The notes under the pieces were generated by a model. It worked only from the letters and a program-made list of their open reading frames with translations, ran no database searches and was not told the origin of the DNA. From Isoptericola sp. AK164 (GTDB lineage Bacteria > Actinomycetota > Actinomycetes > Actinomycetales > Cellulomonadaceae), in assembly GCF_029643425.1 (NCBI RefSeq), contig NZ_CP119106.1:1302001-1366000 (forward strand): a stretch of DNA of 64,000 nt, given 5' to 3'. The first letter of the stretch is position 1. Every line of letters begins with the position of its first letter. Positions 22,040 to 44,971 of this stretch are shown here, piece after piece. The translations under genes were made by a program, and so were the position numbers.

Positions 22040-23115
22040 GCGCGGGCCCGTCCCTTCCACAGCAGCACCGCGAACACGGGCGCACCGATCGCGGCCGTCA
22101 CGATCCCGACCGGCAGCTCGCGCGGGGCGAAGACCGTGCGGGCCAGGGTGTCGGCCCAGATGAGGAACGTCGCCCCGCAGAGCATGGACAGCGGCAGCAG
22201 GGCGCGGTGCCGGGCACCGGTGATCATCCGCACCGCGTGCGGCAGGATGAGGCCGACGAACCCGATGGCCCCGGACTGCGAGACCAGGGCGCCGGTCAGC
22301 AGCGCGACGCCGATCAGCAGCACCCAGCGCACCCGGGCCACCGGCACGCCGAGCGTCGCGGCGGCCGTGTCGCCGAAGGTGAAGGCGTCCAGCACCGACC
22401 CGGTCGAGGCGAGCAGCGTGCCCAGCACGAGCACCGCGCCGCCGGCGATCAGCACCGAGGACCACTCCGCCCCGGCCACCGACCCGAGCATCCAGGACAG
22501 GATCTCGCGGTACTGGTCGCCCTGGGCCGACCAGAAGATGACGAAGCTGGTCGCCGCCGCCGCGAGCTGGGACACCGCGAGCCCGGCCAGCACGGTCCGC
22601 CCGGGGGAGAGTCCGCCGGCGCCCCGTCCGGCGGCCGTGGCCAGCGCCAGGGTCGCGACCAGGGCGGCCGCCGCACCGGCGAACGCCGCGATCGGCAGCA
22701 CGGCGAGCCAGCCGAGCACGAGCACGCTGACCGCGCCCAGCGACGCCCCCGAACTGAGGCCCAGCAGGTAGGGGTCGGCCAGCGGGTTGCGGGTCAGCGA
22801 CTGCATGACGACGCCGCACACCGCGAGTCCCGCCCCCACGGCCGCGGCGGTGAGCACCCGGGGGAGGCGCAGCTGCCACACGATGCCGTCGTCGAGCCGG
22901 TCCGGCGCGGCGATCCCCAGCAGGTCGCCCAGCCCGAGCCGCGTCGCCACGACCTGCCCGACGTCCGACGGCGTCAGCCCGGCCGGGCCGATCGCGACCG
23001 TGACGACGACGCTGGCCAGCAGCACCGCCGTCGTCGCGCCGAGCCACGCCAGCAGCCGGCCCCGCGAGAGCGTCGCGGGGGCCGGTGCCGTGCGTGCCGC
23101 GGTCTCAGTCGGCAA
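22036..23115 (-). CDS. FecCD-type ABC permease, proposed F420-0 importer
   Basis: A 359-residue BtuC/FecCD-type permease with about ten transmembrane helices. Family landmarks include LRLPRVLTAAAVGAGLAVCG, the QSLTRNPLADPYLLG segment near the coupling loop and LPHAVRMITGARHR. It forms the membrane channel for the binding protein encoded immediately upstream (11-base overlap) and the ATPase downstream (4-base overlap). The substrate assignment rests on cassette membership, not on residues visible here. Confidence 0.85.
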   Translation of the reverse strand: MPTETAARTAPAPATLSRGRLLAWLGATTAVLLASVVVTVAIGPAGLTPSDVGQVVATRLGLGDLLGIAAPDRLDDGIVWQLRLPRVLTAAAVGAGLAVCGVVMQSLTRNPLADPYLLGLSSGASLGAVSVLVLGWLAVLPIAAFAGAAAALVATLALATAAGRGAGGLSPGRTVLAGLAVSQLAAAATSFVIFWSAQGDQYREILSWMLGSVAGAEWSSVLIAGGAVLVLGTLLASTGSVLDAFTFGDTAAATLGVPVARVRWVLLIGVALLTGALVSQSGAIGFVGLILPHAVRMITGARHRALLPLSMLCGATFLIWADTLARTVFAPRELPVGIVTAAIGAPVFAVLLWKGRARA

Positions 23116-24139
23116 TCTCGAGCTCCGCGAGCTGGTCGGCGAGGTCGGCGACGGCGTCGGCGTTGCGCACGCCCGCCTCGGTGGCCGGGAACGGCACGAC
23201 GAGGTAGCGCTCCTCGCGCACCGCGGTCAGCTCCGCGGTGGCCGGGTTGTCCTCGAGGCGGGCGATCTTGTCGTCGGCCGAGTTCCACACGGCGTCCACC
23301 AGGACGATGACGTCCGGGTCGGCGTCGACGATCTCCTCCCAGGACAGCGACGTCCAGGTGTCCTCGACGTCGCCGGCGACGTTGGACAGCCCGACGGCCT
23401 CCAGGATCATCTGCGGGGCACCGATGCCGGCCCCGACGTAGGGGATGTCGCTGCCCGAGGAGTACCACAGGGCGCTCAGCTCCCGGTCGTCCGGGGTGAC
23501 CCCGTCGAGAGTCTCCTGCTGCTCCGCGACGAGCGCGGCGGCGGCGTCGTTCGCGTCGAAGATCGCGCCGACCTCGCTGATCTCGGCGAAGACCTCCTCG
23601 AAGGTCAGCGGGTTCGGCATGTACTCGGGCGCCTTGCAGGCGGCCGGGGCGACGTAGCTGTGCACCCCGAGCGAGTCGAGGGTCTCGCGGTCGCCGGCGC
23701 CGTCGGCCGCGACGTTCGACTCCCAGCCCGCGTAGACCAGGTCCGGCTCCAGCTCGAGGACCGCCTCGGTGCCGGGCACCTCGTCGCTGAAGGGATCGGC
23801 GACGGCCGTGCCCTCGGCGTCCTCGGCCAGCCAGTCCGGCACGGGGCCGTCGAGGAAGGCCGATCCGACGATGCGGTCGCCGAGGCCGAGCGCCAGCAGC
23901 GTCTCGGCGGTGGAGGACTTGACGGTGACGACGCGCTCGGGCGCGGCGTCGAACGTCACCTCGGTCCCGCAGTTGTCGAGGGTCAGCGGGTACCCGGTCC
24001 TGATGCCGTCGGACACGGCGGACTCGGACGGTCCCGCGGACGCTGCACCGTCGGCCGGCGGCGAGCCGGTCGAGCAGGCGGCGAGGGAGGCGACGGCGAG
24101 GGTTGCGAGGGTCAGGGCAGCGATACGCGCTCGGGGCAC
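23105..24139 (-). CDS. ABC transporter substrate-binding lipoprotein, proposed F420-0 type
   Basis: A 344-residue lipoprotein (lipobox LAAC) of the class III binding proteins. The conserved run NCGTEVTFDAAPERVVT, then LLALGLGDRIVGSAFLDGP, YAGWESN, ALWYSSGSDIPYVGAG and LVVPFPATEAGVRN matches the family defined as the periplasmic component of the proposed F420-0 importer. Those organisms use F420 enzymes, as this one does (LLM gene at 30056). GTG 24139 has GGGAGT upstream. Iron-chelate binding is the main alternative. A foldable leader precedes the gene. Confidence 0.8.
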   Translation of the reverse strand: MPRARIAALTLATLAVASLAACSTGSPPADGAASAGPSESAVSDGIRTGYPLTLDNCGTEVTFDAAPERVVTVKSSTAETLLALGLGDRIVGSAFLDGPVPDWLAEDAEGTAVADPFSDEVPGTEAVLELEPDLVYAGWESNVAADGAGDRETLDSLGVHSYVAPAACKAPEYMPNPLTFEEVFAEISEVGAIFDANDAAAALVAEQQETLDGVTPDDRELSALWYSSGSDIPYVGAGIGAPQMILEAVGLSNVAGDVEDTWTSLSWEEIVDADPDVIVLVDAVWNSADDKIARLEDNPATAELTAVREERYLVVPFPATEAGVRNADAVADLADQLAELEIAD

Positions 24140-24179
24140 GGGCGGGACTCCCGGAAGGCAGGGGGTGGCGTCGATGGCA

Positions 24180-24255
24180 GGTGCGTCATCTCGCACCGAC
24201 CGGACCTGCGGCCCAGAGAGTGGGGCCGCACCGACGGGCGATTCACCGGTGCCCG
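24180..24255 (-). promoter_or_regulatory. Structured leader with mutually exclusive stems before the F420-0-type importer
   Basis: On the minus strand, stems pair 24247-24252 with 24228-24233, 24223-24230 with 24207-24214 (8 bp) and 24192-24197 with 24180-24185 (6 bp). The first two share bases 24228-24230, so only one can form at a time. This is the layout of a regulatory leader. I looked for cobalamin riboswitch boxes and found only a weak resemblance (GGTGAATC). Confidence 0.35.
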
Positions 24256-24302
24256 TGGTCCGCGAGGTCTTCCACCCTAGTACGCGCCCCGACCGGCCCG
24301 GA

Positions 24303-24363
24303 GTTGTGGGCATGAAATCTGCAACTCGGACGGGGCCCAGGCTGCAGATTTCATGCCCACAAC
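24303..24363. repeat. 21-bp perfect inverted repeat with 19-base spacer
   Basis: Arms 24303-24323 and 24343-24363 are exact inverses; the left arm begins GTTGTGGGCATGAAATC. The arms are far less GC-rich than the surroundings. The element lies between the divergent importer operon and molybdopterin oxidoreductase gene, so it is not a simple terminator. Confidence 0.85.
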
Positions 24364-24450
24364 GGGTCGGGGATTACGGGGTGATGACGGTCCGCGTCCG
24401 ACGGCGGATCCGGCGCGGCGCACGGCGCTCGCGGTGGCAGGGTGGAGGGC

Positions 24451-26085
24451 ATGAGCATCCGAGGAAACGGCTGGTGGGCCGCCCCGGCCGGCGTCGTCGC
24501 CGCCGGCGCGGGGCTGGCGCTGGCCGAGCTGGTCGCCGCCTGGGTCGACCCGGCGTCCTCGCCCGTGCTCGGTCTGGGCGGGGTCGTGGTCGACTCCGTC
24601 CCGCCGTGGCTCAAGGACTTCGCGGTCGAGTGGTTCGGCACCGCGGACAAGCTCGTGCTGCTGTCCACGATGGGCGTCGTGCTGGCCGTGGGCGCGGCGC
24701 TGTCCGGGTGGCTGGAGCTGCGCCGGCCCCCCACCGGCCGGGTCCTGCTCGGTGCCGTGGGTGTCGTCATGGCGTTCGTCGCCGCGACCCGCCCCGAGGC
24801 CACGCCGCTGTGGGCCGTCCCGGCGGTCGTCGGTGTGGGGGCGGCCGTGGTGCTGCTGCGGCTGCTCGTCGCGCGCGTGCCGGCGCCCGCCACCGCGGCC
24901 GCCGCGCCGGTCGCCGCCGGCGGGACGGGCCCCGCGCCGGCCGGAGAGGCCGACGCCGGCACCCCGGCCGGCACCCCGACCGGCACCCCGACCGACACGG
25001 CGGCCGAGACCGGCGCCTCGCGCCGCACCTTCCTGGTCTGGGCCGGTGCGACCGCCGTCGGCGGTGTCCTGGCCCTGGCCGCCTCGCGCACCCTGGCCGC
25101 CGGCAGCCGAGCGGTCGAGGTGGTCCGCGAGGCCATCCGTCTGCCGGGCGCGGCGACCCCCGCGCCCGCCGTGCCGTCCGGCGCCGACCTGGGCGTCGAG
25201 GGGCTCACGCCCTACGTCACGCCGAACCCGGACTTCTACCGCATCGACACCGCCCTGCGGGTGCCGAAGGTCGACCCGGCGACCTGGTCGCTGCGGGTCA
25301 CCGGTCTCGTGGACGAGCCGTTCGAGATCTCCTGGGACGAGCTGCTCGACCTGCCGATGACCGAGCACCACGTGACGTTGTGCTGCGTGTCCAACCAGGT
25401 CGGCGGCGACCTCATCGACAACGCGCTGTGGCTCGGCTACCCGGTCCGCGAGCTCCTGGCCCGCGCCGGCCCGCAGGCCGACGCCGACATGGTGCTGTCC
25501 TCCTCCGTCGACGGCTGGACGGCGGGGACACCCTTGGAGGCGCTGACCGACCCCGACCGGGAGGCCCTGCTCGCGATCGGCATGAACGGCGAGCCCCTGC
25601 CCGAGGAGCACGGTTTCCCGGCGCGCCTCGTCGTGCCGGGACTGTACGGCTACGTCTCGGCGACCAAGTGGGTCACCGAGCTGAAGGTCACCCGCTTTGC
25701 CGACGACGAGGGCTACTGGACCCCGCGCGGCTGGTCGGCGCGAGGGCCGGTCAAGCTGCACTCGCGCATCGACGTGCCGCGCCCCGGCACCCCGCTCGAG
25801 CCGGGCCCCGTCACGCTCGCCGGGGTCGCGTGGGCCCAGCACACTGGTATCGCCGGAGTCGAGGTGCGCGTGGACGACGGCGACTGGATGCCCGCCGAGC
25901 TCGCCGACACCGTCGGCCCGGACACGTGGCGCCAGTGGCGGTACGTCTGGGACGCCACCGCGGGCGACCACACCGTCCTCGTCCGCGCGACCGACACCGA
26001 CGGGCAGGTGCAGACCGAGGAGGAGGCGCCACCGGCACCGGACGGCGCGACCGGCCACCACTCGTTCGGCCTCTTCGTCGGCTGA
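24451..26085 (+). CDS. Membrane-anchored molybdopterin-dependent oxidoreductase (sulfite-oxidase family)
   Basis: A 544-residue protein. The N-terminal 145 residues hold about four transmembrane helices, then an Ala/Thr/Pro linker containing a short 12-base DNA repeat. At 191-192 is a twin arginine (SRRTFLVWAG) before another hydrophobic segment, like an internal Tat signal. Residues about 255-420 form the sulfite-oxidase-type molybdopterin domain, with the likely Mo-ligand cysteine in CCVSN (311/312), and the last about 110 residues the dimerisation domain. It probably acts outside the membrane on an oxidised or sulfur substrate. ATG 24451 has GGAGG upstream. Confidence 0.85.
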   Translation: MSIRGNGWWAAPAGVVAAGAGLALAELVAAWVDPASSPVLGLGGVVVDSVPPWLKDFAVEWFGTADKLVLLSTMGVVLAVGAALSGWLELRRPPTGRVLLGAVGVVMAFVAATRPEATPLWAVPAVVGVGAAVVLLRLLVARVPAPATAAAAPVAAGGTGPAPAGEADAGTPAGTPTGTPTDTAAETGASRRTFLVWAGATAVGGVLALAASRTLAAGSRAVEVVREAIRLPGAATPAPAVPSGADLGVEGLTPYVTPNPDFYRIDTALRVPKVDPATWSLRVTGLVDEPFEISWDELLDLPMTEHHVTLCCVSNQVGGDLIDNALWLGYPVRELLARAGPQADADMVLSSSVDGWTAGTPLEALTDPDREALLAIGMNGEPLPEEHGFPARLVVPGLYGYVSATKWVTELKVTRFADDEGYWTPRGWSARGPVKLHSRIDVPRPGTPLEPGPVTLAGVAWAQHTGIAGVEVRVDDGDWMPAELADTVGPDTWRQWRYVWDATAGDHTVLVRATDTDGQVQTEEEAPPAPDGATGHHSFGLFVG

Positions 26086-26110: not shown

Positions 26111-27529
26111 TCACGCGCCCCCGACGGCCAGGGCGACGGCTGCGGCCACCTCCTCGACGTCGTCGCGCACCATCCCGACGGTGAGCCGCACGTGCGGGCC
26201 GCCGTCGGCCGCCGAGCCCTCCCGGCCGGCGTGGAACGGTGACCCGGGGGCGGCCCGGATCCCCGCGGCCTCCAGGCGGACGAGCGCGGTGTCCTCGTCG
26301 GCCACCGCCAGCCACAGGTTCACCCCGTCGCCGGCCTGTGCCACCACGCCGTGCCGCTCCAGGGCGGCGACGAACCCGCGCTGGCGGGCGAAGTACATCC
26401 GGCGGGCGTGCTCGACGGCCGCGATGGCCTCGGAGTCGGTGAGCAGGTCGGCCAGGACGCGTTGCAGCAGGCGGCTGGTCCAGCCGGGCCCGAGCATGCG
26501 CCGGGCCACCAGCGGGTCGAGCACCGTGGCCGGTCCGCCGACGGTCGCGATGCGCAGGTCGGGGCCGTGCGACTTGGAGTACGAGCGCACGTGCACCACG
26601 CGGTCGGGCAGGTAGGACCCGAGGCTGACGTCCCGGGCCGAGGCGATGAGGCCCGAGTGGTCGTCCTCGAGGACGACGACGTCGGGGCCGTGCGCGCGCA
26701 GCAGTCGCGCGAGCTCGCGGGCCCGCGTCGAGGTCAGGCTGCGTCCGGTCGGGTTCTGCGCGCGCGGCTGGAGCACGACGGCGCGCACTCGGCGCCGCAG
26801 GGCCTGCGCCAGGGACTCCGGGCGCACGCCGTGGCCGTCGAGCGCGAGCGGCACCCGCTCCAGGCCGAGCTGGTCCAGGACGTCGAACACGGGCGGGAAC
26901 CCGGGGTCCTCGACGGCGACGCGGTCGCCGAACCCCGCCACCTGCTCCAGCGTGCGCTCGATGGCGTCCAGGGCGCCGTCGACGACGGTGACGCGCTGCG
27001 GCAGGAACGGCCAGGTCTCGCGCTGCAGCGTCTCGAGCTCCGGCAGCAGGGGCGCGTCGAGGTAGCTGCCGGTGTCGGCGGCCGGGTCGTCGGCGGCGGC
27101 GCGGCGCAGCGCGGCGCCCAGGCGGGGGAGCAGGGCCGGGTCGGGCGTCCCGCCGGACAGGTCGAGGCGGCGGGCGTCGCCCCGCGCGGCGGACGGGGCC
27201 CCGGACCGCGGACCACCGTCGGCCATCGACCGGTACCGCGGGGGCAGCCAGCCGCGCGGCTCGGGCAGCACGACGGTCCCGGCACGGCCCCGGGACGTGA
27301 CGAGCCCGACGGCGGACAGCGCCTGGAACGCGCCGCTGACCGTGGCCGGGCTGACGCCGAGGGCCGCGGCGAGGTCGCGCACGGTCGGCAGGCGGTCGCC
27401 GGGCCGGAGCTCGCCGGAGCGCACCACCCGGGACAGCGTGGCGGCGATGCCGCGGGGGCTGGGGTCGGTGACCCGTGCGGCGAGCCGTGCGGCGTCGAGG
27501 TCGTGCTCGGGCTGCTGATCCTGAGGCAT
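26111..27529 (-). CDS. MocR-type GntR/aminotransferase regulator of the pyrimidine operon
   Basis: A 472-residue fusion of an N-terminal GntR winged helix (about 20-90; RLPTVRDLAAALGVSPATVS) and a C-terminal fold-type I PLP domain (about 115-470). The PLP lysine is in VRSYSKSHGPDLR. MocR proteins sense amino acids or amines via PLP and switch adjacent catabolic operons. ATG 27529 follows GGAGGAG. It is divergent from the operon starting at 27718 that encodes beta-ureidopropionase and a beta-alanine-type aminotransferase, so beta-alanine or an analogue is a reasonable effector. Confidence 0.85.
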   Translation of the reverse strand: MPQDQQPEHDLDAARLAARVTDPSPRGIAATLSRVVRSGELRPGDRLPTVRDLAAALGVSPATVSGAFQALSAVGLVTSRGRAGTVVLPEPRGWLPPRYRSMADGGPRSGAPSAARGDARRLDLSGGTPDPALLPRLGAALRRAAADDPAADTGSYLDAPLLPELETLQRETWPFLPQRVTVVDGALDAIERTLEQVAGFGDRVAVEDPGFPPVFDVLDQLGLERVPLALDGHGVRPESLAQALRRRVRAVVLQPRAQNPTGRSLTSTRARELARLLRAHGPDVVVLEDDHSGLIASARDVSLGSYLPDRVVHVRSYSKSHGPDLRIATVGGPATVLDPLVARRMLGPGWTSRLLQRVLADLLTDSEAIAAVEHARRMYFARQRGFVAALERHGVVAQAGDGVNLWLAVADEDTALVRLEAAGIRAAPGSPFHAGREGSAADGGPHVRLTVGMVRDDVEEVAAAVALAVGGA

Positions 27530-27551
27530 GCGCTCCTCCTGCGGTGACCGA

Positions 27552-27576
27552 AGTGTCCGACTCGGAGTGTTTACAC
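27552..27576. promoter_or_regulatory. Candidate MocR-binding direct repeats
   Basis: AGTGT occurs at 27552 and 27566, 14 bases apart, and the second copy leads into GTGTTTACAC, a short inverted repeat. MocR regulators often bind direct repeats in the shared divergent promoter. Only position and symmetry support this. Confidence 0.3.
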
Positions 27577-27717
27577 CGCCGGCCCGAGTCGACCCGGTAC
27601 CGAAAACGGTCGGTGACGCCACAGAAATGTTCAAGCCCCAGAGTCACATTCATTCGTCCGATGGGCAGCCGGCATCCCGGCGGGCCGCATCGCCAGCCAG
27701 ACCTCGGGAGGTCCTCC

Positions 27718-28566
27718 ATGAGCGTGGTACGCGTCGCATTCACCCAGGCCCGCTGGGCCGGCGACAAGGAGTCGATGATCGCGCTGCACGAGCGCTGGAC
27801 GCGCGAGGCCGCCGAGCAGGGCGCGCAGGTCGTCGCCTTCCAGGAGCTGTTCTACGGCCCCTACTTCGGCATCACCCAGGACACCGAGTACTACGACTAC
27901 GCCGAGTCCGTCCCCGGCCCGACCGTCGACCGCTTCGCCGCGCTGGCCAAGGAGCTCGGCGTCGTCATGGTGCTCCCCGTCTACGAGGAGGAGCAGCCGG
28001 GCGTGCTGTACAACACCGCGGCCGTCATCGACGCCGACGGCACCTACCTCGGCAAGTACCGCAAGCACCACATCCCGCACCTGCCGAAGTTCTGGGAGAA
28101 GTTCTACTTCCGCCCCGGCAACCTCGGCTACCCCGTCTTCGACACGAGCGTGGGCAAGATCGGCGTCAACATCTGCTACGACCGGCACTTCCCCGAGGGC
28201 TGGCGCGTGCTGGCCCTGAACGGCGCCGAGATCGTGTTCAACCCGAACGCCACCGCCCCCGGCGTCTCCAACCGGCTGTGGGAGATCGAGCAGCCCGCCG
28301 CGGCGGCCGCCAACGGCTACTTCATCGTCGCGAACAACCGCGTCGGCCTGGAGGACAACGAGTACGGCGACGAGGCGGTCCAGTTCTACGGCAGCTCGTA
28401 CGCCGTCGGCCCCGACGGCAACTACGTGGGCGACGTCGCCAGCGACAGCGACGACGAGCTCGTGATCCGCGACCTCGACCTCGGCCAGATCCGTGAGGTC
28501 CGCCGGCGCTGGCAGTTCTTCCGCGACCGCCGGCCGGACGCCTACGGCCCGATCGTCGCCCCGTGA
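27718..28566 (+). CDS. Beta-ureidopropionase-type carbon-nitrogen hydrolase
   Basis: A 282-residue nitrilase-superfamily enzyme. N-carbamoyl-beta-alanine amidohydrolases of this type release CO2 and NH3 from the ring-opened pyrimidine to give beta-alanine. The Glu-Lys-Cys triad is visible: Glu43 (FQELF), Lys116 (KYRKHHIPH) and Cys153 (NICYDRHFPE). The HLPKFWEKFYF segment is typical of this branch. ATG 27718 has GGGAGGT upstream. It is the first gene of the nine-gene operon, 34 bases ahead of the dihydropyrimidinase. A hydantoin-derived N-carbamoyl amino acid is the alternative substrate. Confidence 0.85.
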   Translation: MSVVRVAFTQARWAGDKESMIALHERWTREAAEQGAQVVAFQELFYGPYFGITQDTEYYDYAESVPGPTVDRFAALAKELGVVMVLPVYEEEQPGVLYNTAAVIDADGTYLGKYRKHHIPHLPKFWEKFYFRPGNLGYPVFDTSVGKIGVNICYDRHFPEGWRVLALNGAEIVFNPNATAPGVSNRLWEIEQPAAAAANGYFIVANNRVGLEDNEYGDEAVQFYGSSYAVGPDGNYVGDVASDSDDELVIRDLDLGQIREVRRRWQFFRDRRPDAYGPIVAP

Positions 28567-28600
28567 CCCGCCCCGCACGCGCCCACGACAGGAGGACCCC

Positions 28601-30034
28601 TTGAAGACCCTCATCACCGGCGGCACCGTCGTCAACGCCAGCGGCCGCTCGCGGGCCGACGTGCTCATCGACGGCGAGCAGATCGTCGCCCTGCTGGAAC
28701 CCGGATCCACCCTGTTCGGCGTCGACCTCGCGGCCTCCGTCGACAAGGTCGTGGACGCCACGGGCAAGTACGTCGTGCCCGGCGGGATCGACGCCCACAC
28801 CCACATGGAGATGCCGTTCGGCGGCACGTTCGCCGCCGACACCTTCACCACCGGCACGACGGCGGCCGCCTGGGGCGGGACGACGACGATCGTCGACTTC
28901 GTGGTCCAGTACCCCGACCAGAACGTCCTCGACCAGTACGCCCTGTGGCACGACAAGGCCGCCGGGAACTGCGCCGTCGACTACGGCTTCCACCAGATCC
29001 TGTCCGACGTGCAGGACTCGTCGCTGGCCGCGATGGACGAGCTCATCGACGAGGGCGTGACCAGCTTCAAGCTGTTCATGGCCTACAGGGGCGTGTTCCT
29101 CTCCGACGACGGCCAGATCCTGCGGGCCATGCAGAAGGCCGCCGACAACGGCGCCATGATGATGATGCACGCCGAGAACGGCGCCGTCATCGACGTCCTC
29201 GTGCAGCAGGCGCTCGCCGCCGGCAACACGTCCCCGTTCTTCCACGGCACCACCCGCCCGTGGCAGGCCGAGGCCGAGGCCACGAGCCGGGCCATCATGC
29301 TCGCCGACCTCACCGGTGCCCCGCTGTACGTCGTGCACGTCTCGGCCAAGCAGGCCGTCGAGCAGATCGCCCTGGCCCGCGACAAGGGCCAGAACGTGTT
29401 CGGCGAGACGTGCCCGCAGTACCTCTACCTGTCCCTGGAGGAGCAGCTCGGCGCCGTGAGCGAGCAGTGGGGCGACTTCGAGGGCGCCAAGTGGGTGTGC
29501 TCCACCCCGCTGCGCTCGAAGCACGAGGGCCACCAGCACCACATGTGGCAGGCCCTGCGCACCAACGACCTGCAGCTCGTCTCCACCGACCACTGCCCGT
29601 TCTGCATGGCCGACCAGAAGGAGCTCGGGCGCGGCGACTTCTCCAAGATCCCCAACGGCATCGGGTCGGTCGAGCACCGTATGGACCTGATGTACCAGGG
29701 CGTGGTCACCGGTCAGATCTCGCTGGAGCGCTGGGTGGAGATCACCTCGGTCACCCCGGCGCGGATGTTCGGCATGTACGGACGCAAGGGCGTGCTCGCC
29801 CCGGGCGCCGACGCCGACGTCGTGGTCTACGACCCGGCCGGCCACACCTCCATCGGCCTGGGCAAGACGCACCACTCGAACCTCGACTACTCGCCCTGGG
29901 AGGGCTTCGAGATCGACGGCCACGTCGACACGGTGATCTCGCGCGGGCAGGTCCTGGTCGCCGACGACGAGTTCGTCGGCCGCGTCGGGCACGGCAAGTA
30001 CGTCAAGCGCGACCTGTCCCAGTACCTCGTCTGA
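28601..30034 (+). CDS. hydA: Dihydropyrimidinase / hydantoinase
   Basis: A 477-residue zinc amidohydrolase that opens dihydrouracil, dihydrothymine or hydantoin rings. Metal ligands His66 and His68 (DAHTHME), the carboxylated Lys157 (TSFKLFMAY), later histidines in VVHVS and the Asp in STDHCPF are all present. Length is normal. The start is TTG 28601, directly after GGAGGACCCC; no ATG fits. The product is the substrate of the upstream carbamoyl hydrolase. It follows that gene by 34 bases and precedes the LLM oxidoreductase by 21. Confidence 0.9.
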   Translation: MKTLITGGTVVNASGRSRADVLIDGEQIVALLEPGSTLFGVDLAASVDKVVDATGKYVVPGGIDAHTHMEMPFGGTFAADTFTTGTTAAAWGGTTTIVDFVVQYPDQNVLDQYALWHDKAAGNCAVDYGFHQILSDVQDSSLAAMDELIDEGVTSFKLFMAYRGVFLSDDGQILRAMQKAADNGAMMMMHAENGAVIDVLVQQALAAGNTSPFFHGTTRPWQAEAEATSRAIMLADLTGAPLYVVHVSAKQAVEQIALARDKGQNVFGETCPQYLYLSLEEQLGAVSEQWGDFEGAKWVCSTPLRSKHEGHQHHMWQALRTNDLQLVSTDHCPFCMADQKELGRGDFSKIPNGIGSVEHRMDLMYQGVVTGQISLERWVEITSVTPARMFGMYGRKGVLAPGADADVVVYDPAGHTSIGLGKTHHSNLDYSPWEGFEIDGHVDTVISRGQVLVADDEFVGRVGHGKYVKRDLSQYLV

Positions 30035-30055
30035 GCGAGGGAGAAGGAGCACCCC

Positions 30056-31087
30056 ATGGACTTCGGTGTCGTCCTGCAGACCGACCCGCCCGCCTCCCGC
30101 GTCGTCGAGCTCACGCGCCAGGCCGAGAACCACGGCTTCGACTACGCGTGGACCTTCGACTCCCACCTGCTGTGGCAGGAGCCGTTCGTCATCTACTCGG
30201 CGATGCTCGCCGCCACCCGCAAGATCACCGTGGGGCCGATGGTCACCAACCCGGCCACGCGCGACTGGACGGTCCTGGCCTCGCTGTTCGCCACGCTCAA
30301 CGACATGTACGGCAACCGCACCGTCTGCGGCATCGGTCGCGGCGACTCGGCGGTGCGCACCCTCAACGGTCGGCCCTCGAACCTGGCGACCCTGCGCGAC
30401 GCCGTCCACGTCATCCGCGAGCTCGGCAACTCCCGCGAGGCCGAGGTGGGGGAGCGGACCGTCCGCTTCCCGTGGAGCCACGGCTCCGAGCTGGACCTCT
30501 GGGTCGCCGCGTACGGGCCCAAGGCGCTCGCCCTGACCGGCGAGGTGGGCGACGGGTTCATCCTGCAGCTTGCCGACCCGGACATCGCCGCGTGGATGAT
30601 CAAGGCCGTCCGGGACTCCGCCGAGGCCGCCGGGCGGGACCCCGACGACGTGACGTTCTGCGTCGCCGCCCCCGGCTACACGGGTGACGGGTCCTCGCCG
30701 GCCGCCCGGGCGCACATGCGCGAGCAGTGCCGGTGGTTCGGCGGCATGGTCGGCAACCACGTCGCGGACATCGTGCGGCGCTACGGCACGGACTCGGCGA
30801 TCCCGCAGGCGCTGACCGACTACATCCGCGACCGCGAGGGCTACGACTACAACGAGCACGGCCGCGCCGGGAACTCGCACACCGCGTTCGTCCCCGACGA
30901 GATCGTCGAACGGTTCTGCCTGCTCGGCTCCCCGCACGAGCACGTCGAGAAGCTCCAGGCGCTGCGCGAGCTCGGCGTCGACCAGTTCGCCCTCTACCTG
31001 CAGCACGACAACAAGGACGACACGCTGCGCACCTACGGCGAGCGCGTCATCCCGGCCATGCGCGAGCCGGTGGTGGCGAGCGCATGA
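30056..31087 (+). CDS. F420-dependent LLM-class oxidoreductase (TIGR03842-like)
   Basis: A 343-residue TIM-barrel enzyme of the luciferase-like/F420 group. The opening MDFGVVLQTDPPASRVVEL and the segments FDYAWTFDSHLLW, GIGRGDSAVRTLNG and VAAYGPKALALTGEVGDGFILQ match the family annotated as TIGR03842, F420-dependent. The chemistry of that family is not established. Sitting between the dihydropyrimidinase and the importer, and with no dihydropyrimidine dehydrogenase in the operon, it is the natural candidate for the first redox step on the pyrimidine ring. It overlaps the permease gene by four bases. Confidence 0.85.
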   Translation: MDFGVVLQTDPPASRVVELTRQAENHGFDYAWTFDSHLLWQEPFVIYSAMLAATRKITVGPMVTNPATRDWTVLASLFATLNDMYGNRTVCGIGRGDSAVRTLNGRPSNLATLRDAVHVIRELGNSREAEVGERTVRFPWSHGSELDLWVAAYGPKALALTGEVGDGFILQLADPDIAAWMIKAVRDSAEAAGRDPDDVTFCVAAPGYTGDGSSPAARAHMREQCRWFGGMVGNHVADIVRRYGTDSAIPQALTDYIRDREGYDYNEHGRAGNSHTAFVPDEIVERFCLLGSPHEHVEKLQALRELGVDQFALYLQHDNKDDTLRTYGERVIPAMREPVVASA

Positions 31088-31944
31088 GACGCCAGGTGCT
31101 CCTGGGCGCCGCCGGCGTCGGCGCGCTGGCGCTGCTGTGGGAGGGATACAAGCTGGTGGCGCCCGACGACGGCGTCGTGGTGGGCGAGCTCACCGTCCTG
31201 CCCCGCACGAACGACATCGCCATGCCGCACCTGTGGGACATGGCGGCCCGGGCGTTCGAGCCGGTGAACTCCGCCACCGACGCCCTGCCGCTGTGGGTCG
31301 CCGTGCTGGTCGCCGCCGCGTTCACCCTCGGGGTGGCCGCCGTCGGCTGGGTCGTGGGCGTCGTCGTCGGGCTGGGCACCGCCACCCTCATGCAGCGCTT
31401 CCGCACCGCCGAGTCCGCGCTGCTGCCATGGGTGGTGCTGTCCCAGACGGTGCCGCTCATCGCCCTCGCGCCGCTGGTGCGCCGGTGGGGCAGCCAGCTC
31501 GAGGTCGGCACCTTCGACTGGCAGGACTGGATGTCGGTCGCCGTGATCGCGTCCTACCTGGCGTTCTTCCCCGTCTCGATCGGCGCGCTGCGCGGGCTGT
31601 CCTCCCCGGACGCCGTGCACCTGGACCTCATGCGTTCCTACGGCGTCGGGTGGTGGCGCACCTACCGCAGCCTGCGCCTGCCGGCCGCGGTGCCCCACCT
31701 GATCCCCGCCCTGCGCCTGGCGGCGGCGAACGCGGTCATCGGCACCGTCGTCGCGGAGGTCTCCATCGGCCTGCGCGGCGGGATCGGCCGGATGATCGTC
31801 GAGTTCGGCGCCAGCGCCAGCGCCGACCCCGCCAAGCAGTGGTCGCCGATCTTCGGCGCCGTCCTCGTCGGCCTCGTCGCCGCGGGCGTGTGCGCCCTGA
31901 TCGCCCGCGGCCTGGCCCGCTACCGCGTCTCGGAGGTCTCATGA
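31084..31944 (+). CDS. ABC transporter permease (NMT1/nitrate-taurine type)
   Basis: A 286-residue permease. After an N-terminal membrane anchor it has about five more helices and the cytoplasmic coupling loop (RSYGVGWWRTYRSLRLPAAVPH) of SsuC/TauC-type permeases. An unusually long periplasmic segment of about 50 residues (residues 25-70) separates the first two helices. It is one of two nonidentical permeases flanking the ATPase gene, suggesting a heterodimeric channel. ATG 31084 overlaps the LLM stop (ATGA). Confidence 0.82.
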   Translation: MRRQVLLGAAGVGALALLWEGYKLVAPDDGVVVGELTVLPRTNDIAMPHLWDMAARAFEPVNSATDALPLWVAVLVAAAFTLGVAAVGWVVGVVVGLGTATLMQRFRTAESALLPWVVLSQTVPLIALAPLVRRWGSQLEVGTFDWQDWMSVAVIASYLAFFPVSIGALRGLSSPDAVHLDLMRSYGVGWWRTYRSLRLPAAVPHLIPALRLAAANAVIGTVVAEVSIGLRGGIGRMIVEFGASASADPAKQWSPIFGAVLVGLVAAGVCALIARGLARYRVSEVS

Positions 31945-32828
31945 ACTCGTCCGCGCCCACCCGCGCCACCGCGACGTCGGCCGGCACGGCCGGCACCCCG
32001 GCCGGGACCGCCCCCGACCCGCACGCCGCGGCCGCCGTCGAGGTCCGCGGCGTCACCCGGCGCTTCTCCTCGCGGTCCGGCGAGGTCGTCGCGCTGTCCG
32101 ACGTCGACCTCACCGTCCGCGCCGGGGAGTTCGTCTCGCTCATCGGCCCGTCGGGTTGCGGCAAGTCCACGCTGCTGCGGCTGATCGCCGACCTCGACGA
32201 GCCCACCGCCGGCGAGCTGTCCGTCTTCGGCCGGCCGCCCCGGGTGGCCCGGCAGAACCACGACTTCGGCATCGCCTTCCAGCAGGCCGGGCTGCTGCCG
32301 TGGCGCAGCGTGCGCACCAACGTCGAGCTGCCGCTGCAGCTGCACGGCACCGGACGCGGCGCGCGCCGCGCCCGGGCCACCGAGCTGCTGGAGATGGTCG
32401 GGTTGGCCGACTTCGCCGAGCACCTGCCGCACCAGCTCTCCGGCGGGATGCAGCAGCGCGTCGCCATCGCCCGGGCGCTCGCCGAGCGGCCCAGCCTGCT
32501 GCTGATGGACGAGCCCTTCGGCGCGCTGGACGAGATGACCCGCGAGCACGTCCAGACCGAGCTGCTGCGGCTGCGTGCCGAGACCGGGGCCGCCGTCGTG
32601 TTCGTCACCCACTCCATCCCGGAAGCGGTCTACCTCTCGGACCGCGTGGTCGTGATGTCCGCCCGTCCCGGTCAGGTGCGCGAGGTCGTGCCGGTCGGCC
32701 TCGGCGAGGCCCGCGACCGCAGCGACGACGTCCGCGAGGACGACGCCTTCTTCGACCGGGTGCGGGCCGTGCGCGAGGCGCTGCACGGCGCCGACGGCAC
32801 CACACCGCGGGGGGTGGACCGGCGATGA
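31941..32828 (+). CDS. ABC transporter ATP-binding protein (NMT1/nitrate-taurine type)
   Basis: A 295-residue ATPase. Walker A GPSGCGKST, the Q-loop FQQAGLLPW typical of the nitrate/taurine/sulfonate subfamily, signature LSGGMQQRV and Walker B LLMDEPFGALDE are present. An Ala/Thr-rich N-terminal extension of about 30 residues precedes the domain. ATG 31941 is preceded by GGAGGT and overlaps the upstream stop by four bases. It energises the two permeases on either side. Confidence 0.88.
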   Translation: MNSSAPTRATATSAGTAGTPAGTAPDPHAAAAVEVRGVTRRFSSRSGEVVALSDVDLTVRAGEFVSLIGPSGCGKSTLLRLIADLDEPTAGELSVFGRPPRVARQNHDFGIAFQQAGLLPWRSVRTNVELPLQLHGTGRGARRARATELLEMVGLADFAEHLPHQLSGGMQQRVAIARALAERPSLLLMDEPFGALDEMTREHVQTELLRLRAETGAAVVFVTHSIPEAVYLSDRVVVMSARPGQVREVVPVGLGEARDRSDDVREDDAFFDRVRAVREALHGADGTTPRGVDRR

Positions 32829-33607
32829 CCCGATCAGCGACGACCACCTGGCGCCGCGCCGAGGTCGTCCTCGCCCCCGTCCTGCTCGGGCTGCTCGCCC
32901 TGGCGCTGTGGGAGACCGCCGTCGTCGTGCTCGAGCTGCGACCGTTCGTCGTCCCCAGCCCGACCAGCATCGGCGCCGAGCTCACCGGCAACGCCGGCAT
33001 CATCGCCACCGCCGCGCTCTCCACGGCCCTCAACGCCTGGTGGGGACTGGTGATCGGCGTGGTCGTCGCGCTGGTCGCGGCCGCGGTCTCGGCCGCCGTG
33101 CGCACGATCGACGAGATGTCGGCGCCCCTGGCCGCCGCCGCGGCCGTCGTGCCGATCGTCGCCCTCGCCCCGGTGCTCTACACGATGTTCGGGGCGAGCA
33201 CGCAGACCGCCCGGGTCGCCGTGGCCGCGATCGTGTCCTTCGTCCCGGTGTACGTCAACACCCTGCGGGGCCTGCGCACCGTGGCCCCGGTGCACCGCGA
33301 CCTGCTGCGCGCCTACGCCGCGACGCGCCGGCAGGCGACGCTCACCGTCACCCTGCCCGGCGCGCTGCCGTTCTTCTTCAGCGGCCTGCGGGTCGCCACC
33401 TCGCTGGCCGTGATCTCCGCCCTGGTCGCCGAGTACTTCGGCGGGCCGGTGGACGGGCTCGGCAAGGCGATCACCTCGGCCGTGTCGTCCAGCAACTACC
33501 CGCTCGCGTGGGCCTACGTCGTGGGAGCCGTCGTCGTCGGGCTCCTGTTCTTCTGCGGCAGCTCCGGGCTGGAGCGGGCGGTCCTGCACCGCCGCTCCCA
33601 GCGCTGA
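32825..33607 (+). CDS. ABC transporter permease, second subunit
   Basis: A 260-residue inner-membrane permease with about six helices and the coupling loop LRAYAATRRQATLTVTLPGALP. The opening FVVPSPTSI is characteristic of SsuC/ThiX-like permeases. Paired with the permease at 31084-31944 it likely builds the channel. ATG 32825 overlaps the ATPase stop (ATGA), continuing the tightly coupled transporter set. Confidence 0.85.
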   Translation: MTRSATTTWRRAEVVLAPVLLGLLALALWETAVVVLELRPFVVPSPTSIGAELTGNAGIIATAALSTALNAWWGLVIGVVVALVAAAVSAAVRTIDEMSAPLAAAAAVVPIVALAPVLYTMFGASTQTARVAVAAIVSFVPVYVNTLRGLRTVAPVHRDLLRAYAATRRQATLTVTLPGALPFFFSGLRVATSLAVISALVAEYFGGPVDGLGKAITSAVSSSNYPLAWAYVVGAVVVGLLFFCGSSGLERAVLHRRSQR

Positions 33608-33630
33608 CCCGGACGCCGACCACCTGTCGT

Positions 33631-33670
33631 ACCGAGCAGCACCGAGCAGCACCGTCCAGCACGTCCCAGC
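33631..33670 (+). repeat. 10-bp tandem repeat before the binding-protein gene
   Basis: ACCGAGCAGC occurs twice exactly, followed by two diverged copies (ACCGTCCAGC, ACGTCCCAGC), a 40-base run in the 82-base gap between permease and binding-protein genes. It may be neutral slippage or space the transcript for differential expression. Confidence 0.7.
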
Positions 33671-33689
33671 ACTCGAGAGGAAACGCACG

Positions 33690-34838
33690 ATGAAGCACAC
33701 AGCACGCACCGTCGTCCGGACGGGGGCCGTCGTCGCGAGCACAGCGCTCGTGCTGTCCGCCTGCGGCGGCGAGACCGAACCCACCGGGTCCGCCGACGGC
33801 GAGGAGCTGACCCCGGTCACGCTCCAGCTCCAGTGGGTCGCCCAGGCCCAGTTCGCCGGCTACTACGCCGCCGTCGACCAGGGCTTCTACGAGGAGGAGG
33901 GACTGGACGTCACGATCCAGGAGGCCGGGACCGACACCGTCCCCATCGACGTGCTCGCCGCCGGCGAGGCCGACTACGCCATCTCCTGGGTGCCGAAGGT
34001 GCTCGGGTCGATCGAGCAGGGCACCGAGGTGACCAACGTCGCGCAGGTGTTCGAGCGCTCCGGCACCCTGCAGGTCGCCATGGCCGACTCCGGGATCGAG
34101 GGCCCCGAGGATCTCGCGGGCAAGAACGTCGGTTCCTGGGGCTACGGCAACGAGTGGGAGCTGTTCGCCGGCATGCAGCAGGCCGGGCTCGACACCAGCG
34201 AGGACATCACCCTGGTCCAGCAGGCGTTCGACATGAACGGGTTCCTCGCCGGAGACATCGATGCCGCCCAGGCGATGACGTACAACGAGTACGCCCAGGT
34301 GCTGGAGACCGTGAACCCCGACACCGGTGAGCTCTACCAGCCCGAGGACCTGACGGTCATCGACTGGAACGAGGTCGGCACGGCGATGCTGCAGGACGCC
34401 ATCTGGGCCGACGCCACCCGCCTGGCCGACGACGAGGCCTACGCCGAGACCACCGTCGACTTCATCAAGGCGTCCCTCAAGGGCTGGGTGTACGCCCGCG
34501 ACGACGCCGAGGCGGCGGCCGACATCGTCACCGCCGCCGGGTCCACGCTCGGCACGAGCCACCAGCTCTGGCAGACCAACGAGACCAACAAGCTCATCTG
34601 GCCGTCCACCTCGGGCGTCGGCACCATCAACGCCGACCAGTGGGACCAGACCGTCGACATCGCGATGAACACCCAGAACGAGACCGGTTCGACGATCATC
34701 ACCACCGAGCCGCCGGAGACGGCCTACTCCAACGAGTACGTCGAGGAGGCCCTGGCCGAGCTCACCGAGGAGGGCGTCGACGTCATGGGCGAGGACTTCG
34801 CCCCGATCGAGGTCACCCTCACCGAGGGCGGCGCGTAA
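33690..34838 (+). CDS. NMT1/THI5-like ABC substrate-binding lipoprotein
   Basis: A 382-residue lipoprotein (lipobox LSAC, Cys at about residue 25) of the NMT1/THI5-like fold. The domain begins TLQLQWVAQAQFAGYYAAVDQGFYEEEGLDV, followed by YAISWVPKVLG and a GSWGYGNEWEL segment. The family binds thiamine or riboflavin precursors, pyrimidines or nitrate-like anions. In this operon a pyrimidine base, dihydropyrimidine or hydantoin is the likely ligand. GAGAGGAAACG precedes the ATG. A strong hairpin follows the stop. Confidence 0.85.
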   Translation: MKHTARTVVRTGAVVASTALVLSACGGETEPTGSADGEELTPVTLQLQWVAQAQFAGYYAAVDQGFYEEEGLDVTIQEAGTDTVPIDVLAAGEADYAISWVPKVLGSIEQGTEVTNVAQVFERSGTLQVAMADSGIEGPEDLAGKNVGSWGYGNEWELFAGMQQAGLDTSEDITLVQQAFDMNGFLAGDIDAAQAMTYNEYAQVLETVNPDTGELYQPEDLTVIDWNEVGTAMLQDAIWADATRLADDEAYAETTVDFIKASLKGWVYARDDAEAAADIVTAAGSTLGTSHQLWQTNETNKLIWPSTSGVGTINADQWDQTVDIAMNTQNETGSTIITTEPPETAYSNEYVEEALAELTEEGVDVMGEDFAPIEVTLTEGGA

Positions 34839-34848
34839 CACCCGCCCT

Positions 34849-34888
34849 CCGGGCGTGGCGCCGCAGTCCCCGGCGGCGCCACGCCCGG
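34849..34888 (+). terminator. Intra-operon 16-bp hairpin after the binding-protein gene
   Basis: Arms 34849-34864 and 34873-34888 pair perfectly around an eight-base loop, all G-C rich, with no U-tract. It lies in the 81-base gap before the aminotransferase gene. It could partly terminate or protect the 3' end of the upstream message, raising binding protein over downstream enzymes. Confidence 0.55.
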
Positions 34889-34919
34889 CCCTGCCCACCG
34901 TGTCCCGGAAGGACGTCCC

Positions 34920-36263
34920 ATGACCGCCACCGAACCGCTGACCGGCGCGGCGCTCGACGCCGCCGTCGTCGAGGCCGACCACCGGCACGTGCTGCACTCC
35001 TGGTCCGCCCAGGCGCACCTGCCGTCCTTCGTCGTCGCCGGCGGGGCCGGCTGCCGGGTCTGGGACCACGCCGGGACCACCTGGCTGGACTTCTCCAGCC
35101 AGCTCGTCAACACCAACATCGGCCACCAGCACCCGGCGGTCGTGGCCGCCATCGCCGAGCAGGCCCGCACCCTGACCACGATCTCGCCCGCCATCGCGAA
35201 CCTGGCCCGCGGCCGGGCCGCCGAGCGCATCCTGGCCCGCGCCCCGGAGGGCTTCGCCAAGGTCTTCTTCACCAACGGCGGCGCCGACGCCAACGAGAAC
35301 GCCGTGCGCATGGCCCGCCTGCACACCGGCCGCGACAAGGTGGTCTCCACCTACCGCTCGTACCACGGCAACACCGGGGCCGCCGTCGTCGCCACGGGGG
35401 ACTGGCGGCGCGTGCCCAACGAGTACGCCCGCGGCCACGTGCACGCCTTCGGGCCCTACGCCTACCGCTCGGAGTTCTGGGCGACGTCGGAGGCCGAGGA
35501 GTGCCAGCGCGCCCTGCACCACCTCGAACGGGTGGTGCAGTGCGAGGGGTCCGCGTCGGTCGCCGCGATCCTGCTCGAGACGGTCCCCGGCACGGCGGGC
35601 GTGCTCGTGCCGCCGCCCGGCTACCTCGCCGGGGTCCGCGAGATCTGCGACCGGTACGGCGTCCTGCTGATCCTCGACGAGGTGATGGCCGGGTTCGGCC
35701 GCACCGGGACCTGGTTCGCCTTCGACGACCACGGCGTCGTGCCCGACCTGGTCACCTTCGCCAAGGGGGTCAACTCCGGGTACGTGCCCGCCGGCGGCGT
35801 CCTCGTCAGCGCCGACGTCGCCGCGACCTTCGACGAGCGGGTCTTCCCGGGTGGGCTGACCTACTCGGGCCACCCGCTGGCGATGGCCGCGATCGTGGCC
35901 GCCCTGGACGCCATGGAGGCCGAGGGGGTGGTCGAGAACGCCGCCTGGGTCGGGCGCGAGGTGCTCGGCCCCGGCCTGGCGGCACTCGCGGCCGAGAACC
36001 CGCTCGTCGGGGAGGTGCGCGGCACCGGGGTGTTCTGGGCGGTCGAGCTCGTCGCGGACCGGGCCTCGCGCGAGCCGCTGCCGGCCGCCGACATGGCCCG
36101 GATCAAGACACTCTGCCTCGAACGTGGTTTGCTGCCCTTCGTGGCCGAGAACCGCGTCCACGTCGTGCCGCCGTGCGTCGTCACCGACGACGAGGCGCGC
36201 GAGGGCCTGGCGATCCTCGCCGGCGTCCTGCGCGACGTCGCCGCCGACCGACCGTCCGCCTGA
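34920..36263 (+). CDS. Class III aminotransferase, beta-alanine--pyruvate (omega-amino acid) type
   Basis: A 447-residue PLP enzyme of the omega-transaminase group. The PLP lysine is in LVTFAKGVNSGYVP; the cofactor Asp is in LILDEVMAGFGRTG; VFFTNGGADANENAVRMAR binds the PLP phosphate. In this operon it would convert beta-alanine to malonate semialdehyde with pyruvate or oxoglutarate as acceptor. GGAAGGACG precedes ATG 34920. The SDR gene follows after 19 bases. Confidence 0.88.
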   Translation: MTATEPLTGAALDAAVVEADHRHVLHSWSAQAHLPSFVVAGGAGCRVWDHAGTTWLDFSSQLVNTNIGHQHPAVVAAIAEQARTLTTISPAIANLARGRAAERILARAPEGFAKVFFTNGGADANENAVRMARLHTGRDKVVSTYRSYHGNTGAAVVATGDWRRVPNEYARGHVHAFGPYAYRSEFWATSEAEECQRALHHLERVVQCEGSASVAAILLETVPGTAGVLVPPPGYLAGVREICDRYGVLLILDEVMAGFGRTGTWFAFDDHGVVPDLVTFAKGVNSGYVPAGGVLVSADVAATFDERVFPGGLTYSGHPLAMAAIVAALDAMEAEGVVENAAWVGREVLGPGLAALAAENPLVGEVRGTGVFWAVELVADRASREPLPAADMARIKTLCLERGLLPFVAENRVHVVPPCVVTDDEAREGLAILAGVLRDVAADRPSA

Positions 36264-36282
36264 ACCCCGAGGAGCACCACCG

Positions 36283-37068
36283 ATGAGCACCACCCCCACG
36301 CCCGCCCGCCGCGCCCTGGTCACCGGGGCGTCCTCCGGCATCGGCGCCGCCGTCGTCCGCCGCCTGCGCGCCGAGGGCTGGCAGGTCGTCGCGTCCGCCC
36401 GTCGCGCGGACCGCCTGGAGGCCCTGGCCGCCGAGACCGGGGCCGAGGCCTACCCGCTGGACGTGACCGACGAGGCGGCCGTGGCCGCGCTGGCCACGCA
36501 CCTGGAGGCGACCGGCGGGCTGGACGCCGTGGTGAACAACGCCGGCGGTGCGCTCGGCCTGGACCGTGTCGAGGACGGCGACCTGGACGGCTGGCGGCAG
36601 ATGTACGAGCTCAACGTGCTCGGCACGCTGCGCGTCACGCAGGCGGTGCTGCCGCTGCTGCGCGCGTCGGCGCGGGCGCAGGGGTCCGACGGCGGCGCGG
36701 ACGTCGTGGTCGTGACTTCCACCGCCGCGCACGGCGCCTACGAGGGCGGTGCCGGGTACACCGGCGTCAAGCACGCCGAGCGGATGCTGACCACGACGCT
36801 GCGCTGGGAGATCGCGGGTGAGCCGATCCGCGTCATGGAGATCGCGCCCGGCAACGTCGCGACCGAGGAGTTCTCCCTGGTGCGGTTCGACGGCGACGCC
36901 GAACGGGCGGCCGCGGTCTACGAGGGCTACCAGCCGCTGGTCGCGGACGACATCGCCGACGCGGTCACCTGGGCCCTGACCCGGCCCGCGCACGTCAACA
37001 CCGACCTGATGGTCATCCGACCGCGCGCCCAGGCGCACAACCAGAAGATCGCGCGCACGGGAGTCTGA
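36283..37068 (+). CDS. YdfG-like short-chain dehydrogenase (3-hydroxy acid / malonate semialdehyde reductase)
   Basis: A 261-residue SDR: TGASSGIG at residues 14-21, NNAGG, and the catalytic YTGVK (YxxxK). The C-terminal region (APGNVATEEFSLVRFDGDAERA, then TRPAHVNTDLMVIRPRAQ) closely parallels E. coli YdfG, which reduces malonate semialdehyde to 3-hydroxypropionate. That is the product expected from the aminotransferase encoded just upstream, so the pair completes pyrimidine breakdown. ATG 36283 has CCGAGGAGC upstream. Last gene of the operon. Confidence 0.88.
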   Translation: MSTTPTPARRALVTGASSGIGAAVVRRLRAEGWQVVASARRADRLEALAAETGAEAYPLDVTDEAAVAALATHLEATGGLDAVVNNAGGALGLDRVEDGDLDGWRQMYELNVLGTLRVTQAVLPLLRASARAQGSDGGADVVVVTSTAAHGAYEGGAGYTGVKHAERMLTTTLRWEIAGEPIRVMEIAPGNVATEEFSLVRFDGDAERAAAVYEGYQPLVADDIADAVTWALTRPAHVNTDLMVIRPRAQAHNQKIARTGV

Positions 37069-44967: not shown

Positions 44968-44971
44968 CCTC

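Follow-up and report, generated by a model that had tools for sequence, protein, structure and literature searches.

How does a bacterium that is equipped to dismantle dihydropyrimidines obtain them from uracil and thymine? The question is raised by an operon of Isoptericola sp. AK164, located in a 64,000-nucleotide stretch of contig NZ_CP119106.1 (positions 1,302,001 to 1,366,000) that is referred to here as the window. The operon proper spans window positions 27718-37068, or 26111-37068 with its divergent MocR-type regulator. It encodes a dihydropyrimidinase, further catabolic enzymes, and an importer. Between the ring-opening enzyme and the importer, where the first-pass annotation had placed it, lies the gene for a luciferase-fold (LLM) protein, now assigned to the family TIGR03842. 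The usual dihydropyrimidine dehydrogenase (DPD) is, within the reach of the searches, missing. Judged by its genes, the operon is probably devoted to the reductive breakdown of imported pyrimidines, with the LLM protein serving as the F420H2-dependent uracil/thymine reductase of the first step.

What would such a pathway look like? The importer would bring in pyrimidines, and the LLM protein would pass a hydride from F420H2 to uracil or thymine, yielding the dihydropyrimidine. The dihydropyrimidinase would open the ring and a CN hydrolase would release the beta-amino acid, which the aminotransferase would convert to a semialdehyde for reduction by a short-chain dehydrogenase/reductase (SDR). 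In this scheme, the reaction of the LLM protein, its substrate and direction, the cargoes of the transporters, and the ligands of the regulators are what we infer from sequence.

The observations that carry this reading are the gene families themselves, their linkage, the absence of PreA, and the genes that supply the cofactor. The proposal in the first-pass annotation that the LLM gene encodes an F420-dependent DPD finds support in them as a genomic prediction. A wider proposition has somewhat better than even prospects: that TIGR03842 is a non-homologous, F420H2-dependent DPD of the window's class (Actinomycetes) and of Proteobacteria, that many marine and soil Proteobacteria keep an entire F420 biosynthesis operon for pyrimidine catabolism, and that relatives of the window's organism lacking CofH retain the enzyme by importing FO.

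The missing first enzyme

Does the genome (3.58 Mb, a single contig) encode a classical first enzyme elsewhere? A genome-wide search for PreA gave a best score of only 23 bits, and the single PF01180 match is a quinone-type PyrD, which bears out the earlier remark that the usual dehydrogenase is absent. RutA was called in none of 12 of the 13 PF00296 stretches, the scanned ones being the window LLM, one more, and 10 at E <= 1e-25 (L266, which has an internal stop, was left out). The first-pass annotation had also suggested checking relatives for PreA. None of the 80 LLM-positive class genomes searched has it above its cut-off, which is consistent with replacement but no proof of it. These 80, in which CofH and the F420-0 binding protein were sought as well, come from 82 LLM-positive genomes, G060 and G074 being omitted as incomplete. 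For Proteobacteria, 50 of 80 loci were chosen, covering 48 genomes, and PreA was below cut-off in 40 of them.

Gene neighborhoods

TIGR03842 scored over its cut-off in 82 of 296 genomes of the class; split pieces apart, the listed members reach at least 414 bits and non-members stay below 148. The stretches around all 82 LLM genes were searched with the window proteins. In 78 of them a dihydropyrimidinase gene is found no more than 8 kb away, always on the LLM strand, and in 55 the distance is less than 200 bp, an organization beyond what chance would give. The LLM-dihydropyrimidinase pair is the most constant element of these loci. A CN hydrolase follows closely in frequency (75 of 82 within 8 kb, on the LLM strand in every case). 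Other components are an aminotransferase of at least 30% identity (54), an NMT1-type binding protein (28), a MocR gene (22), an NCS1-type permease (19), and a methylmalonate-semialdehyde dehydrogenase homologue (27).

A different arrangement is found in Proteobacteria. A plasmid search returned 14 records, including 10 from Leisingera and 1 from Paracoccus with homologues of 44% identity, and a Streptomyces homologue of 66%. In two annotated plasmid loci, one from Leisingera and one from Paracoccus, the gene order is cofG-cofH-cofD-cofC-cofE-npdG-LLM, i.e., a complete F420 pathway plus an NADPH-dependent F420 reductase. A divergent cluster at the Leisingera locus encodes transhydrogenase subunits, an aminotransferase, a Zn-dependent hydrolase, and a dihydropyrimidinase. 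A species-genome scan with the Leisingera and Paracoccus queries gave 100 relatives, of which 80 loci were kept; with the 2 plasmids, the set comprises 82. Within 8 kb, 75 of these have both cofH and cofD, and 72 have npdG, which in 71 is less than 200 bp from the LLM gene. A TetR gene of a RutR-like kind is near in 62, carbamoylase homologues are found in 45 stretches, NCS1-type permeases in 30, and a methylmalonate-semialdehyde dehydrogenase homologue in 14. The Paracoccus denitrificans locus (L050, genome G303) groups F420 genes and the LLM gene with homologues of carbamoylase and dihydropyrimidinase, in a genome where PreA does not exceed its cut-off.

The best evidence on substrate comes from one locus only, L105. 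It carries, in order, a CN hydrolase, an NCS1 permease (325 bits; cut-off, 353), a dihydropyrimidinase (605; cut-off, 393), six F420 genes, and the LLM gene. These are followed by a carbamoylase (TIGR01879, 440; cut-off, 204), a RutR-like gene (192; cut-off, 368), a cytidine deaminase (163; cut-off, 74), and a thymidine phosphorylase (616; cut-off, 571). It is the last two that give the locus its weight, because they feed uracil and thymine.

Could the LLM protein instead serve a later step, as an F420H2-dependent aldehyde reductase acting on malonate or methylmalonate semialdehyde, while an unrecognised enzyme reduces uracil? F420 enzymes of the same fold do include a secondary alcohol dehydrogenase (1rhc). 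However, the window SDR already suits the semialdehyde step, the methylmalonate-semialdehyde dehydrogenase homologues noted above recur in both groups, and no other recurrent candidate for the first step appeared among the genes inspected. With the LLM gene so often placed within 200 bp of the dihydropyrimidinase gene, this explanation strikes us as quite improbable.

Some proteobacterial loci have other layouts. Four from alphaproteobacterial metagenome-assembled genomes (L091, L100, L106, and L113) combine the LLM gene with a carbamoylase, a dihydropyrimidinase, and an NMT1 importer like that of the window, with no cof genes within the stretch. In two from Afifellaceae (L071 and L073), npdG and the LLM gene form a pair, and cof genes are not nearby. 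A contig titled Nocardioides marinus (L036) bears a Leisingera-like operon whose LLM is 98% identical to that of Leisingera, and is probably contamination or mislabeled.

The LLM protein: family, fold, and conserved residues

PF00296 is the only Pfam match of the window LLM. Its AlphaFold model has a mean pLDDT of 90.7, weaker around residues 230-280. In a Foldseek search the top hit was Mer (8qpl; E 3e-23, TM 0.76, 25% identity); ranks 1 to 27 were all F420 enzymes, and the first other enzyme stood at rank 28. A profile search against solved structures likewise put Mer first and other F420 enzymes next. With F420 users as its nearest relatives, and hosts that have a source of the cofactor wherever one was sought, the protein is predicted to bind F420.

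Is it then simply a Mer-like methylene-tetrahydrofolate or -methanopterin reductase, in the operon by chance? Mer is the closest solved family by sequence and by fold, yet the window protein scores only 116.8 bits against the Mer model TIGR03555 (cut-off, 348.7). The position of Mer Glu6, the residue mutated in 8qq8, was read off the LLM-Mer alignment; the Glu is missing in 159 of 159 aligned LLM members, all 77 of one group having Val there and all 82 of the other Cys or Thr. A conserved stretch, residues 227-269, aligns poorly with Mer, and the linkage is to pyrimidine genes. Taken together, this leaves the Mer-like alternative barely credible.

The same stretch may hold a clue to the substrate. 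The window LLM is 41-48% identical to the proteobacterial clade, and 72 alignment columns are more than 97% identical in the class clade and the proteobacterial clade alike. Of these, 22 fall within the 43 residues of 227-269, versus 50 in the 300 elsewhere, making this a candidate substrate region. The alignment leaves out 5 of 164 proteins: L158, in two frames, and L201, L211, L251, and L252, in which the cut overran the stop codon. In L158 (genome G094), the LLM matches in two frames point to a broken gene or a sequencing error.

RutA, which the first-pass annotation had invoked as a sign that this fold can act on pyrimidines, proved a poor structural guide. RutA belongs to the LLM superfamily and is an oxidative, flavin-dependent enzyme whose substrates are uracil and thymine. 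The common superfamily and these substrates would suit a flavin-dependent, RutA-like pyrimidine oxygenase in the operon. Against this, RutA (TIGR03612) is not among the best 25 of 26 NCBIfam matches of the window LLM. No RutA-named chain turned up among solved structures related to it in sequence (E <= 1e-5), nor among the 50 best fold matches. RutA is thus not a close match in sequence or fold. Furthermore, the Rut route is not known to require a dihydropyrimidinase, and the LLM gene is linked to F420 supply genes. An oxygenase of this kind is very improbable.

Where does the F420 come from?

The enzyme, most likely an F420H2-dependent DPD, would have its cofactor supplied in three forms. (i) Most of the class would synthesize its own: CofH, the F420 ring synthase, is over cut-off in 69 of the 80 LLM-positive genomes, with a weaker match in 3 and none in 8. 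(ii) In Proteobacteria, the cofGHDCE-npdG operon beside the LLM gene would provide it, NpdG reducing F420 with NADPH. (iii) The window's organism would import a precursor, probably FO or F420-0, through the putative F420-0 ATP-binding cassette (ABC) importer at 21083-24313, with CofD and CofE finishing the cofactor.

The third case, whose importer the first-pass annotation had missed, deserves a closer look. The genome of the window has no CofH match, which suggests that F420's ring is not made in this organism. The 11 class genomes without CofH over cut-off all come from the window's order. Not all of these lack the synthase, as the weak match in G239 is an FbiC fusion whose CofG half is well over its cut-off; the CofH cut-off alone therefore undercounts F420 makers. 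This divergent FbiC lies at L161 2174-4738, the CofH half being the one under cut-off. G148 has cofG and cofH homologues near cofD, and G138 is the third genome with a weak match. The remaining eight, including that of the window, have CofD over cut-off and CofE present (CofD was searched in 34 genomes and CofE in 24, each set including every one of the order's 11 LLM-positive genomes). A complete lack of F420, the other way to read the missing CofH, was set aside, given that CofD, CofE, and the putative importer are all present in the organism.

The F420-0 binding protein is over cut-off in exactly these 8 of the 80 genomes, and the importer is read as a means of cofactor salvage. In G195 and G213, the importer genes and cofD make up a single block adjacent to the LLM operon's MocR gene; for two relatives, the importer in a block with cofD was placed at L154 6542-10617 and L156 11189-14926. 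What might the cargo be? The importer model presumably describes F420-0 import by genomes that retain only cofE. The substrate of CofD is FO, and CofD is kept in all eight importer genomes, so the cargo may be FO rather than F420-0.

Has the LLM of the importer genomes switched to another cofactor? Seven of the eight were compared (L158 omitted), and a single diagnostic position, 126, separates them from the rest of the class. The LLM tree places G204, an importer genome, together with G239 and G148, which have FbiC, inside one clade. The label test of the tree puts the importer group on one side of a branch, but it counts the proteobacterial group alone against it, the FbiC rows being ungrouped. 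The single position and the grouping of G204 make such a switch unlikely.

Weighing the evidence, and another possible substrate

A number of observations weigh against the proposed role of the LLM protein or its tie to F420. The 0 of 80 for PreA comes from LLM-positive genomes only, with no LLM-negative baseline. The expectation that PreA would also be absent from LLM-positive Proteobacteria held just in part, since 8 of 48 genomes have both (loci L035, L038, L041, L043, L044, L046, L049, and L062, in Leisingera, Tritonibacter, Thalassovita, Limimaricola, and Shimia). LLM and PreA can therefore coexist or divide substrates, and replacement is not strict everywhere. At the thresholds used, 4 of 82 class loci show no dihydropyrimidinase (the contig ends there in G074), nor do most proteobacterial loci, where one was found in 29 of 80 with the weak matches of L071 and L073 (25-26%) excluded. 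In 27 of 82 proteobacterial stretches every pathway gene sought is lacking; many stretches are cut short by the end of a contig or at a distance of 10 kb. The two RutR-like proteins scanned score 194 and 192 bits, about half the RutR cut-off of 368. NCS1 permeases fall below their own cut-off (325 and 333 versus 353 bits), and the best solved relative is a hydantoin carrier.

Further points concern the cofactor. In 29 other class genomes there are related binding proteins that do not reach the importer cut-off (best, 240 bits), so that 37 of 80 have one at E <= 1e-30. The window's genome has further F420-type LLMs besides TIGR03842. One lies about 4 to 6 kb before the window start (L185 13842-15670), belongs to TIGR03557 of the F420 glucose-6-phosphate dehydrogenase family, and overlaps CofE; against a "flavin revert" family its score is 315 bits (cut-off, 399). 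Among 369 gammaproteobacterial genomes sampled, CofH is over cut-off in 14, and 13 of these have no LLM, which implies other uses of F420 there. Of 80 gammaproteobacterial genomes tested, 2 have the LLM over cut-off: G317, the query center, and G638, which has a fragmented CofH that scores below cut-off. It was found in 0 of 65 tested that have CofH below cut-off or absent. The idea that Gammaproteobacteria have F420 solely on account of the LLM was dropped as unsupported.

Several of these findings would suit an LLM protein that uses F420 on another ring, such as hydantoin, a modified pyrimidine, or a breakdown product of the thiamin pyrimidine, with uracil and thymine handled otherwise. Dihydropyrimidinases open hydantoins too, and hydantoinases are among the solved relatives of the window enzyme. 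The operon includes a THI5-like binding protein, the NCS1 permease resembles a hydantoin carrier, and PreA is retained in the eight genomes just named. On the other hand, L105 ties the LLM gene to cytidine deaminase and thymidine phosphorylase, RutR-like regulators recur, PreA is below cut-off in the other 40 proteobacterial genomes and in all 80 of the class, and the opening of the hydantoin ring, as is generally known, needs no redox step. On these grounds another ring is an unlikely substrate, and reduction of uracil or thymine is preferred.

Layout of the operon and its surroundings

All genes named in the first-pass annotation are present (Table 1), and domain matches confirm both the MocR regulator and the importer beside the catabolic genes. 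The claim of a complete route from dihydropyrimidine to 3-hydroxypropionate fared less uniformly. The dihydropyrimidinase and aminotransferase are over curated cut-offs, while the CN hydrolase and SDR are assigned by resemblance only. The CN hydrolase is under every curated cut-off compared (best, TIGR03381, 254 versus 410 bits), and its nearest solved chains are N-carbamoylputrescine amidohydrolase (210 bits), CG3027-PA (2vhh; 195), and beta-ureidopropionases (178). Solved relatives of the window dihydropyrimidinase comprise hydantoinases and dihydropyrimidinases. The best solved relative of the importer's binding protein, at 55 bits, binds N-formyl-4-amino-5-aminomethyl-2-methylpyrimidine, a thiamin-type pyrimidine. 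For the MocR gene, the best NCBIfam model is PtsJ (265 bits; cut-off, 573).

Table 1. Features of the F420-0 importer and pyrimidine operon region (window positions)
Feature	Position	Strand	Basis and remarks
ATPase, putative F420-0 ABC importer	21083-22039	-	TIGR03873, 347.5 bits (under cut-off, 372.4); best match
Permease, putative F420-0 ABC importer	22036-23025	-	TIGR03869, 485.5 bits (cut-off, 437.35)
Binding protein, putative F420-0 ABC importer	23105-24313	-	TIGR03868, 470.4 bits (cut-off, 392.4)
MocR-type regulator	26111-27529	-	Divergent from operon; GntR and aminotransferase I/II domains
Intergenic stretch between divergent genes	27530-27717		Probable operon promoter, predicted from sequence
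CN hydrolase, likely beta-ureidopropionase	27718-28566	+	PF00795; nearest solved relatives
Dihydropyrimidinase	28601-30034	+	TTG start; TIGR02033, 552 bits (cut-off, 393)
LLM (luciferase-fold) enzyme	30056-31087	+	TIGR03842, 594.1 bits (cut-off, 295.45); proposed F420H2-dependent uracil/thymine reductase
ABC permease	31084-31944	+	PF00528
ABC ATPase	31941-32828	+	PF00005
ABC permease (second)	32825-33607	+	PF00528
NMT1/THI5-type binding protein, likely pyrimidine-binding	33690-34838	+	PF09084
Class III aminotransferase, likely beta-alanine or beta-aminoisobutyrate	34920-36263	+	NF004718, 728 bits (cut-off, 472)
SDR, YdfG-like	36283-37068	+	NF007829, 166 bits (cut-off, 411)

Elsewhere in the window, where the GC content runs from 67 to 76%, a sulfite-dehydrogenase-like protein (24442-26085; 110 versus 420 bits) sits between the F420-0 importer and the MocR gene. 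At 43987-47794 lies another cassette for an ABC importer, this one of the siderophore type. Its binding protein is SstD-like (139 versus 450 bits), and its other genes are named by position and appearance only.

Known systems and significance

How does the proposed enzyme compare with what is known? PreTA, PydA, and the eukaryotic DPD catalyze the reaction predicted for the LLM protein and occupy the same place in the pathway, before dihydropyrimidinase. They differ from it in fold, being of PF01180 (NF006183) rather than PF00296. DPD works with NAD(P)H, flavin, and iron-sulfur components, whereas the LLM protein lacks iron-sulfur domains and is predicted to take F420H2 as its donor in their place. 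From Mer it is set apart by the low identity, the loss of Glu6, the conserved region, and the pyrimidine context described above. A similar replacement has been proposed in Chloroflexota, where, according to one paper, a putative F420-dependent yanthine reductase of the luciferase family in uricolytic clusters replaces YgfK or a PF01180-type reductase (PMC12507026). The replacement idea is the same, but substrate, pathway, and phylum are different.

The family itself is known as a hypothetical equivalog of NCBIfam (TIGR03842, F420_CPS_4043) whose name gives no reaction, and the importer is known as a putative one, TIGR03868, TIGR03869, and TIGR03873 being the best models for its genes. The window's copy differs from that known transporter in lying near a pyrimidine operon and in a genome where CofD is retained. 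In the open literature searched, no reaction for TIGR03842 and no paper linking F420 or TIGR03842 to pyrimidine catabolism was found. Within that literature, neither the reaction, nor the bearing of the F420 operon on the proteobacterial puzzle, nor the link of salvage to a pyrimidine operon is in print. The puzzle is set out in a 2021 review, which calls the reason why Proteobacteria and Chloroflexi make F420 unanswered, states that no bacterial F420-using enzyme outside Actinobacteria had then been studied experimentally, and mentions trace F420 in Paracoccus denitrificans (PMC8498797).

Overall, in many soil and marine bacteria the breakdown of uracil and thymine seems to begin with an unfamiliar enzyme dependent on F420, a rare cofactor. 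Genes for making or importing F420 are often near that of the enzyme, which may explain why some of these bacteria possess F420 at all. If this is true, a widespread family would gain a reaction, and a textbook step a second solution. Biocatalysis would gain a new F420 reductase, and deazaflavin salvage a physiological reason. Proteobacterial F420 would have a role, a question that can be tested in Paracoccus denitrificans.

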